Shown: positions 35,494-38,399 of the stretch, piece after piece
Numbering within the stretch: position 1 is the stretch's first letter
Layout: every line of letters begins with the position of its first letter
Assembly: GCA_025786725.1 (NCBI GenBank)
Contig: JAHLTZ010000001.1
Span: forward strand, 496,001-560,000
DNA: 64,000 bases
Source of the DNA: Syncephalis fuscata
Taxonomy: Eukaryota; Zoopagomycota; Zoopagomycetes; Zoopagales; Piptocephalidaceae
Direction of reading: 5' to 3'
Position numbers and translations under genes: made by a program
Notes under the pieces: generated by a model
What the model was told of the DNA's origin: nothing
The model's database searches: none
What the model saw: only the letters and a program-made list of their open reading frames with translations

Positions 35494-38399
35494 TTCTGTA
35501 TTTATAAATAAAAATATTATATGCCATATAATTAATGCATAGCCAGTCGATATATAATGCTACTTACAGCCTATTAATATTAAGTTATTGATATACATGG
35601 TGCATAATATGCAATTAGTGAGTAATTAACTAATACAAAAATTTACATACATTCTATTAATATTGAATAGTTGATACAATTAGTAAATAGCATAGTTAAT
35701 GTATAGTTAACTAATATACAATATTACTTACGAGCTATTAATATTAAACAATTGGTAAAATTAGTAAATAGTGTTAATGTAGTCAATTAATATATAATAT
35801 TACTTACCAGCTATTAATATTAAACAATTAGTACAATTAGTAAATAGTGTTAATGTAGTCAATTAATATATAATATTACTTACGGACTAATAATATTAAA
35901 TAATTAGTACAATCGATAAATAGCAGTTAATGTATAATCAGTTAATATACAATGTCACTTACAATCTATTAATATTAAATAGTTGATATAACCAGAATCA
36001 TAGTTAATGTATAACCAATTAACATACAACACAACTTACAATCTATTAATATTAAATAATTGGTACAATCAGTAAATAGCATAGTTAATGTATAGTCAAT
36101 TAATATACAATACAACTTACTGTCTATTAATATTAAATAATTGGCACAATCAGTAAATATCATAGTCAATATATAATTAGTTAATATACAATATCACTTA
36201 CGACCTATTAATATTAAGTTATTAATATACACGGTGCATGGTATATAATTAGTTAATAGTCAATTAATATACAATACTACTTACTGCCTATTATATTAAG
36301 TTGTTGGCGCACATAGTACATCATATACAATTAGCAAATAACCAATTAACATACAACACAACTTACAATCTATTAATATTAAATAATTGGTATAATCAGT
36401 AAATAACATAGTTAATGTAGTCAATTAATATATAATATTACTTACGAACTAATAATATTAAATAATCGGTACAATCAATAAATAGCATAATTAGTGTAGT
36501 TAGGTAATATACAATATCACTCACTCTCTATTAATATTAAGTTATTGATATACATGGTACACGATATATAATTGGTCAATGGTCAATTAATACACAACAC
36601 TACTTACTGCCTATTATATTAAGTTGTTGGCGCGCATAGTACATCATATACAATTAGCAAATAACCAATTAACATACAACACAACTTACAATCTATTAAT
36701 ATTAAATAATTGGTATAATCAGTAAATAACATAGTTAATGTAGTCAATTAATATATAATATTACTTACATTCTATTAATATTAAACAATTGATACAATCA
36801 GTAAATAGCATAGTTAATGTATAGTTAATTAATGTACAATATAACTTACTTCCTATCAATATTAAACAATTGGTACAATTAGTAAATACCATAGTTAATG
36901 TAGTCAATTAATATATAATATCACTTACTAGCTATTAATATTAAACAATTGGTACAATTAGTAAATAGTGTTAATGTATAATCAGTTAATATACAATATC
37001 ACTTACTGTCTATTAATATTAAACAATTGATACAATTAGTAAGTAGCAGTTAATGTATAATCAGTTAATATACAATGTCACTTACCGCCTATTAGTATTA
37101 AATAATTGGTACAATCAGTATGTAGCATAGTTAATGTATAGTTAATTAATATACAATGTTACTTACCGCCTATTAATGTTAAATAATTGGCATTATCAGT
37201 AAATAGTATAGTTAATGTATAATCAGTTAATATACAATGTCACTTACCGCCTATTAATATTAAATAATTGGTACAATCGATAAATAGCATAATTAATGTA
37301 TAATCAGTTAATATACAATATCACTTACGAGCTATTAATATTAAATAATTGATGTAACCAGTAAATAGCATAGTTAATGTACGGTTAGTTGACATATAAT
37401 ATAACTTACTGCCTATCAATATTAAATCATTGATACACACAATACACAATATGCAATTAGTCAATAGTTACTTAATATATGATGCTACCTACAATCTATT
37501 AATATTTGTTGATACACACAGTACATGGATATAGTTAGCAAGTAATTAATTGATATATAATACAACTTACGACCTATTGTATTGTTAACACACACAATAC
37601 ATAATATATAATTAGTGTATAGTCAATTAATATGCAATGTTACTCGCTCACTATTCCATCAAATTATTGATACACATAGTGCATGGCATATAATTAGTTT
37701 ATAAGTCAGTTGATATACAATGTTACTTACGACCTATTATTATTATTAAGTTATTGGTATGCACAACAAATAATATACAATTAGCCAATGCTCAATTAAT
37801 ATACAATATAACTTACATGCTATTGATATTAAATTGTTGATATACACGATGCATGGCATATAATTAATAAGTAATTGGTTGATATATAATATGACTTACT
37901 TTCTATGGCATTAAGTTGTAATACACATAGTGTATGAAATATCATTAGTCTATAAGTCATCAATATACAATATCACTTACTGCCTATTAGTATTAAGTTA
38001 TTGATATGCATAACATATAATATATAATTAGTAAGTAAGCAATTCATATACAATACAACTTACATTCCGCTAATATTAAGTTATTGATGGATGTATTGCA
38101 TGACACATAATTAGTGTATCTCTATTGATATGCAATACAACTTACCAACTATTGATATTAAGTTATTGATAAACACAATAAATAGTATACAATTAGCATG
38201 TAAACAATTAATATATGATATTACTTGCCACCTATTATAATTATTAGTTAGAAATACTGTTAATAAACAAATGCTGTTATATTTAGTAATATTGCAACAT
38301 ACTACCACGACGGACTAAGGCTGGATTAGCATCCACCATGGCTGTACTGGCCACAAGAGCCACGACAATGGTGCAAATGACGGCAATGGAAAGCTTCAT
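35494..38399 (-). CDS. Micro-exon gene for a secreted six-cysteine peptide
   Basis: Exon 1 (38399-38303) encodes a signal peptide (MKLSIAVICTIVVALV...) ending Arg-Arg-Gly plus one base (phase 1), before a GTATGT donor. Then come 34 micro-exons of 3 nt (one of 6 nt). Their lowest coordinates are 38229, 38146, 38064 (6 nt), 37981, 37900, 37817, 37731, 37648, 37571, 37493, 37410, 37329, 37248, 37167, 37086, 37007, 36929, 36850, 36769, 36690, 36608, 36525, 36446, 36367, 36285, 36202, 36121, 36040, 35963, 35884, 35808, 35732, 35651 and 35568. Each is flanked by ...TTAATAG and GTAAGT. The last exon starts at 35495 and completes TAA. The joined frame has 67 residues, no internal stop, and cysteines at 37, 40, 44, 54, 58 and 67. 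Each of these codons is split across two exons. Function is unknown; a secreted disulfide-rich effector or defence-like peptide is possible. Confidence 0.8.
35561..38234 (-). repeat. Tandem array of about 34 similar intron units
   Basis: Units repeat every 76-86 bases. Each minus-strand unit runs GTAAGT, an AT-rich core often holding a TACTAAT- or TACCAAT-like branch site, and ATATTAATAG, then three variable bases. Two units have GC donors (37648 and 38229 exons) and one has GTATGT. A four-unit block is duplicated at an offset of exactly 323 bases (exons 36202, 36285, 36367, 36446 against 36525, 36608, 36690, 36769). Within it one intron is identical over 76 bases, yet the adjoining three exon bases all differ (36446 against 36769). 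Confidence 0.93.

Follow-up and report, generated by a model that had tools for sequence, protein, structure and literature searches.

Genes made up largely of very small exons are known from several lineages. The micro-exon genes (MEGs) of schistosomes encode secreted products, consist mostly of very small symmetrical coding exons and evolve fast at the organism interface (PMC4350168; PMC10526429), with exons of 3–81 bp and introns of up to 5 kb (PMC10526429). In aphids, the numerous bicycle genes are thought of as encoding putative secreted effectors and have many small internal exons that nearly always start at codon position 2; in these insects the exon number is about 17 on average in bicycle genes and more than 100 in megacycle (PMC9168663). 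Arabidopsis APC11 contains a 1-nt exon, for which intron definition and stepwise splicing have been proposed (PMC4674806), and Drosophila homothorax a 3-bp exon (PMC7392893). In the fungus Trichoderma, Xlr2, a transcription factor gene, carries a functional micro-exon that is single and regulatory (PMC11121469). In the passages cited, neither the schistosome MEGs nor the bicycle genes are described as having single-codon exons over whole domains. A fungal gene with its whole mature domain made of one-codon exons was not found among the literature matches listed (subscription papers partly covered, bioRxiv preprints outside the scope), in line with the original prediction, which knew of no earlier fungal case.

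The gene described here belongs to Syncephalis fuscata (Zoopagales, Zoopagomycota), and Syncephalis is a mycoparasitic genus (PMC10386755). It was found in a stretch of 64,000 nucleotides (contig JAHLTZ010000001.1, positions 496,001 to 560,000), which we refer to as the window. To judge from the sequence analysis, it is in all probability one of about 100 secreted-peptide genes of this fungus in which the mature domain would be encoded at one codon per exon. With the schistosome MEGs it shares predicted secretion, tiny symmetrical exons and fast change; its own features are the 3-nt size of 33 of its 34 internal exons, introns of about 78 nt, the presence in a fungus and the existence of intron-less sister genes. 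As in the bicycle genes, codon position 2 is where each internal exon begins, since exon 1 here ends one base into a codon, while the 18–44 micro-exons, nearly all of a single codon, the tandem-repeat form and the fungal host genome are particular to S. fuscata. APC11 and homothorax show that spliceosomes can include exons of 1–3 nt, with one such exon per gene versus 34 in the window gene. Like Xlr2, the gene has micro-exons in a fungus, single and regulatory in that case versus 34 coding ones here. The features of the window gene, which consists of exon 1, 34 micro-exons (33 of 3 nt and one of 6 nt) and a last exon, are the following:

38430-38400, minus strand: 5' leader, ending in TCTTAACAAATCAATATCACC, alike in array-bearing and intron-less paralogues
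38399-38303, minus strand: exon 1, 97 nt, with the start codon, the signal peptide and an RR (Kex2-like) site
38302-38297, minus strand: donor of exon 1, GTATGT
38231 to 35568, minus strand: array of 34 micro-exons, from the splice model
Micro-exons 1-7 (first base, minus strand): 38231 GTG, 38148 TTG, 38069 CGGAAT, 37983 GCA, 37902 AAA, 37819 CAT, 37733 GTC
Micro-exons 8-14 (first base, minus strand): 37650 TGA, 37573 GTC, 37495 ATT, 37412 GCA, 37331 CTC, 37250 GCG, 37169 GCG
Micro-exons 15-21 (first base, minus strand): 37088 GCG, 37009 ACA, 36931 CTA, 36852 GAA, 36771 AAT, 36692 ATT, 36610 GCA
Micro-exons 22-28 (first base, minus strand): 36527 AGA, 36448 TTC, 36369 ATT, 36287 GCA, 36204 GTC, 36123 ACA, 36042 ATT
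Micro-exons 29-34 (first base, minus strand): 35965 ATT, 35886 TCC, 35810 CTG, 35734 CTC, 35653 AAT, 35570 GCT
38228-38223, minus strand: donor of micro-exon 1, GCAAGT (GC type)
38069-38064, minus strand: the only 6-nt micro-exon of the gene, CGGAAT, in the context TATTAG-CGGAAT-GTAAGT
37650-37642, minus strand: micro-exon TGA (37650-37648) with its GC-type donor GCGAGT
35495-35417, minus strand: last exon, starting AATAATCG, in which T plus AA forms the stop

The 35 introns measure 71–83 nt (median 78), and a typical unit reads TTAATATTAATAG-NNN-GTAAGT. Among the micro-exon donors GTAAGT is used in 29 of 34, and GCAAGT, GCGAGT, GTAGGT, GTGAGT and GTATGT once each. In the CGGAAT unit the acceptor AG is shifted 3 nt upstream within the unit, and a 6-nt unit is the third one in several other arrays too. 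The last exon has the acceptor AAATACAG and contains a 3' stretch conserved in the family (a 65-nt match at 35481-35417). Seen as a whole, the array repeats in tandem with a period of about 81 bp, and its multi-unit blocks measure about 323 bp. A neighbouring gene in the window, importin-like as judged by eye, contains an ordinary intron with the same signals as the units, GTAAGT...TAATAG, likewise read by eye. Directly upstream of the window gene there is a 246-bp direct repeat in 2.6 copies (window 38772-39411).

Exon 1 encodes MKLSIAVICTIVVALVASTAMVDANPALVRR-G.. and ends in ..CGT CGT GGT A, leaving phase 1. The signal exon and the minus-strand array of 34 micro-exons, one of them of 6 nt, had been proposed from the letters of the window, and all the features described are present; the splice model confirmed that exon 1 in phase 1 plus the 34 micro-exons give an open frame. 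The TGA unit is indeed harmless, being read in phase 1 as C-TG A-GT (Leu-Ser). The spliced translation is ...LVRR followed by GSVAECKTCLSHCTRGGDTRKYCKIHCSHNYFPAQC, with the C-terminal end ..FPAQC, and the expected six Cys in the arrangement C-x2-C-x3-C-x9-C-x3-C-x8-C were recovered (spacing 2-3-9-3-8). As had been claimed, the last splice makes a TAA right after the final Cys, from a T and the AA at 35495-35494. The coding sequence adds up to 97+105+2 = 204 nt with 35 introns modelled, the size originally foreseen (about 204 bases, 35 introns), and the micro-exons make up 105 of the 204 nt, practically the whole mature part. The predicted product begins with a signal peptide and an RR site, where a Kex2-type protease would cut, and continues as a six-Cys mature peptide of about 36 residues; secretion, cleavage at RR and the formation of three disulfides are presumed. 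The order signal peptide, dibasic site, Cys-rich mature part is found in the window gene and in its intron-less sisters (signal peptide recognised by eye). In codon usage, set against eight ordinary open frames from the window, the best fit was that of the true frame (rank correlation 0.40), a weak signal given that one wrong frame reached 0.38. Pfam gave no family for the window peptide and, among 12 family members, four families that each matched a single member: Toxin_2 (E 2.5e-4), Cys_box (1.2e-3), CbiG-like_linker (0.016) and TIL (0.018). The best match in a PDB sequence search had an E of 0.78, which is not significant, and the predicted structure of an intron-less relative showed only a helical tendency (pLDDT 59.9).

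The original prediction had argued that chance would rarely produce such a frame. For the window by itself this is only suggestive, because 14.5% of the order-shuffles of its own 34 exons were stop-free and 5% had at least six Cys. The prediction also understated the case, since the window gene is a member of a large gene family, and the argument is carried by a shuffle test over 24 arrays. The set took in the window, 11 of an initial 12 stretches (L042, with 11 units, was excluded for lacking an exon 1 of this family) and 12 later ones; of the latter, 11 had previously displayed six or more units over a partial 1.5 kb, and one was picked for its exon 1. Splice models were built from signal matrices and intron length, with a prior favouring exon sizes in multiples of 3; the final ones combine long and short donor matrices and made no use of stops or Cys, and they were refined after earlier translations had been viewed. 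The 24 arrays comprise 727 micro-exons (694 of 3 nt, 29 of 6, two of 4 and two of 2), with 18–44 per array, and under the multiple-of-3 size prior 723 of the 727 units are symmetrical (3 or 6 nt). With the length prior left aside, 466 of the 469 consensus pairs in the 24 arrays had TAATAG and GTAAGT separated by exactly 3 nt. Joined in order in the frame of exon 1, the micro-exons contain no stops, versus 42.4±5.0 when their order is shuffled (minimum 28 in 2,000 shuffles), and the two other frames contain 8 and 60. The number of Cys in the joined order is 124, versus 62.4±5.6 (maximum 82), and the motif C-x2/3-C-x3-C occurs in 15 genes versus 0.57 (maximum 4). After removal of close duplicates (19 arrays, 571 exons) the values were 0 versus 34.4 stops, 100 versus 47.0 Cys and 14 versus 0.38 motifs. 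This family-wide test is decisive.

A stop codon lies 0–5 codons past the last micro-exon in all 16 arrays examined for it. This count omits L039, L045 and L049 for their enlarged introns, L048 and L065 for units of odd size, and L046, L060 and L066, in which no last acceptor was recognised (the L066 stretch ends too early). Among the omitted arrays, L039 and L049 have an immediate stop after the last unit, and L045, L048 and L065, each with a unit of 2 or 4 nt, run on for 22, 22 and 32 codons. In L049 one unit is 2 nt long and exon 1 contains a stop. One of 18 partial arrays (about 1.5 kb each), L034, which lies outside the 24, has one in-frame stop and an enlarged intron. In L062 one stop appeared in earlier models and was gone once missed units had been recovered.

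That all 34 units of the window gene are symmetrical means that any subset of them keeps the frame, and the genes could be real micro-exon genes with heavy alternative splicing, each giving rise to a pool of in-frame peptides, as is said of schistosome MEGs (PMC4350168). With all units included, on the other hand, exactly six Cys are obtained in 13 of the 24 arrays (and seven in one), a hint that selection acts on the product with every unit retained; we regard extensive alternative splicing as possible, with the chances rather against it. The ten arrays with fewer than six Cys are L039, L044, L045, L046, L047, L048, L049, L060, L065 and L068, and several of them are read as decaying or truncated copies.

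Traces of decay raise the question of whether the arrays are relics, formerly spliced codon by codon and by now mostly pseudogenes, with the intron-less sisters as the active genes. An insert shared by L039 and L045 (GTGAGCCCCCGCTGCGCATAATTAAAG..) may be a short mobile element, and odd-sized units or a stop are found in L045, L048, L049 and L065. However, the comparison of close paralogues (window/L059, L040/L041 and L050/L044) gave a different picture. Between the members of these pairs, 3 of 582 positions differed in the 6-nt donors, 0 of 188 in the AG and 8 of 940 in the 10 bases before the AG, versus 207 of 5593 (3.7%) in the intron interiors and 21 of 288 (7.3%) in the micro-exons. Against the intron interior, Fisher tests gave 3e-6 for the donor, 3e-7 for the 10-base acceptor stretch and 0.002 for the AG, and 0.004 for the micro-exons, which change faster. 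Splice signals that are kept while the codons change at about twice the intron rate are what would be expected of diversifying secreted peptides. Between the window and L039, the one insert-bearing copy compared, no such constraint was seen (donor 20 of 197, AG 6 of 63, intron 251 of 1923). Near-identical copies also differ by whole codons, with unit numbers of 41 versus 42 and 21 versus 19. With donors and AGs nearly fixed in the three pairs, it is very unlikely that the arrays as a group are relics; the array genes are very probably real micro-exon genes.

Other irregularities of length were observed. Array introns enlarged to about 490–570 nt occur in L039, L045, L049, L067 and L034, and in L067 the frame is open across the enlarged intron. 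The first intron, usually of about 73 nt, measures about 960–980 nt in L013, L014, L028/L067, L061 and L045, and the remaining array of L061 and L067 is spliced in frame despite it. A search of Rfam with 4 sources, including L039 and L045, gave no match.

Independent evidence of what the arrays encode comes from their intron-less sisters. Paralogues that share the signal exon but lack introns in the mature part have a Cys layout, CxxCxxxC...CxxxC, like that of the spliced arrays. In 14 of 15 such genes the small mature part is CxxCxxxC..CxxxC..C with minor variations (for example RRGDRCTDCIDACTATKKNAVVCLNQCTNQKKCPA in L020 and RRGGKSPQCTSCMATKCKKGMNASICNDICKKECSA in L029), and only L057 departs from this Cys pattern. 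When four spliced and eight intron-less members were aligned, four Cys of the mature part were invariant and two nearly so. A second subfamily links a segment of the spliced product of L046, CKCQDEDGNCTSC, to one of the annotated P0004/P0012, CKCRDDDGYCTSC, with a score of 69, the maximum of 300 shuffles being 44. With earlier, incomplete models, 13 of the 24 arrays were similar to intron-less sisters at the 1% level in a pairwise test, and 9 of 24 beat 99% of shuffles against a profile of the sisters, in which L044, L046, L047, L050, L066 and L068 scored below the shuffled mean. An intron-less retrocopy sought with the window mature part alone gave no genomic match, in a search that had no known positive match. 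In a 33-row tree built from exon 1 with its 5' flank, array genes were intermixed with intron-less ones (5 changes; 20 of the 30 inner branches open), which favours neither gain nor loss of the introns as the direction. As to location, some intron-less members lie in opposite-orientation pairs about 0.7 kb apart (C146:125001-126120; C275:3986-5086, in G000) and near-identical ones are found on short contigs, e.g., C236 and C273, which suggests recent amplification or uncollapsed haplotypes.

The micro-exon interpretation put forward originally is thus backed by the joining of the 24 arrays, by the Cys framework of the intron-less sisters and by the conservation of splice signals in close paralogues. 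The same results make it extremely improbable that the array is a minisatellite inside one long intron, i.e., junk skipped by the direct splicing of exon 1 to the last exon. The array certainly has the form of a tandem repeat (units of about 81 bp, multi-unit blocks of about 323 bp), and skipping it whole would yield a short product, RRGK-stop. However, the variable triplets are framed by nearly fixed splice signals, their joining in order gives zero stops and twice the shuffled number of Cys, the splice sites are constrained between close paralogues, and the kind of peptide that splicing predicts is found in the intron-less sisters. That the units are instead ratchet points of recursive splicing, shortening a long intron stepwise with triplets not meant for coding, is hardly credible: acceptor and donor do adjoin in every unit, as at recursive sites, but the known sites of this kind retain zero exon bases, and here exactly 3 bases are retained in 466 of 469 consensus pairs, coding in register.

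In the micro-exon reading, the 3-nt exons would be joined by spliceosomal removal of the introns of about 78 nt. Exon definition is sterically implausible where only 3 nt lie between acceptor and donor, and removal would most likely proceed intron by intron (intron definition), with exon 1 gaining one codon per step; such sequential splicing would follow the proposal made for the 1-nt exon of APC11. Since nearly all units are symmetrical in phase 1-1, gain or loss of units by recombination would change residues and leave the frame intact, and the array may therefore act as an unusually safe generator of peptide variety.

The size of the family was estimated from patterns searched over the 28.95-Mb genome. 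The unit pattern, at up to 2 mismatches, had 1009+976 = 1,985 matches, and its reversed control 0+0. The pattern is fitted by 445 of the 727 modelled units, from which about 3,240 micro-exons, and about 107 arrays at a mean of 30 units, can be extrapolated, a figure that counts in decayed copies. The signal exon occurs in at least 150 genomic places among 329 candidates, the pattern of its junction with the donor has 164 genomic matches (control 3), and the 3' stretch has 63 at up to 3 mismatches (control 0), array and intron-less genes among them. Not all copies of the signal exon lead an array. The one at window 442-534 (plus strand) has a GTATGT donor and one weak candidate unit, and is perhaps a truncated gene or a member of another subfamily. 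At window 27550-27885 (plus strand) the same signal exon precedes, in P0010, a different mature part that is free of Cys and has KR sites; the signal exon is therefore common to different peptide types. In the same window, neighbouring open frames at 29400-32936 (minus strand) presumably encode, from their translations, secreted M36 fungalysin-type metalloproteases.

A search with the spliced window peptide found one protein, the hypothetical protein BDF19DRAFT_453325 of S. fuscata, which is the translation of the loci L019 (C236) and L018. A profile search of 5.8 billion proteins gave 14 matches at an E of no more than 0.01, of which 13 are S. fuscata proteins and one is P0010 of the window. 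There were no relatives in other species among these 14 matches, nor any relation to schistosome MEG or aphid bicycle proteins, in a search that required shared 5-residue words and may miss distant ones. The words in the tail of one annotated protein, P0006, occur as translated intron in the arrays L050, L058, L065, L066 and L067, and the tail of P0011, a partial model, lies within the L046 array, so that at least these two annotated models seem to disregard the micro-exons. Automated annotation can miss an array of this kind, and similar families may be hidden elsewhere.

Taken on in silico grounds (unit structure, an ordered Cys-rich open frame, splice-site constraint and likeness to intron-less genes), these genes would represent an extreme architecture, with about one exon per residue of the mature peptide at many loci of one genome. 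They would challenge ideas on minimum exon size, as acceptor and donor stand 3 nt apart dozens of times per transcript, and the intron-less sisters offer a natural comparison for any benefit of the micro-exon form. Our guess, based on lifestyle, secretion signal and rapid codon change, is that the peptides might help the fungus to attack its fungal host or to interact with it. A more speculative idea, to which we give a modest chance, is that one-codon exons work as a combinatorial code, in which alternative inclusion and unit recombination over about 100 loci would create pools of Cys-rich in-frame peptides against fungal hosts or rivals. For the family itself, the arrays would provide a route for gene evolution by insertion and deletion of whole codons without loss of frame.
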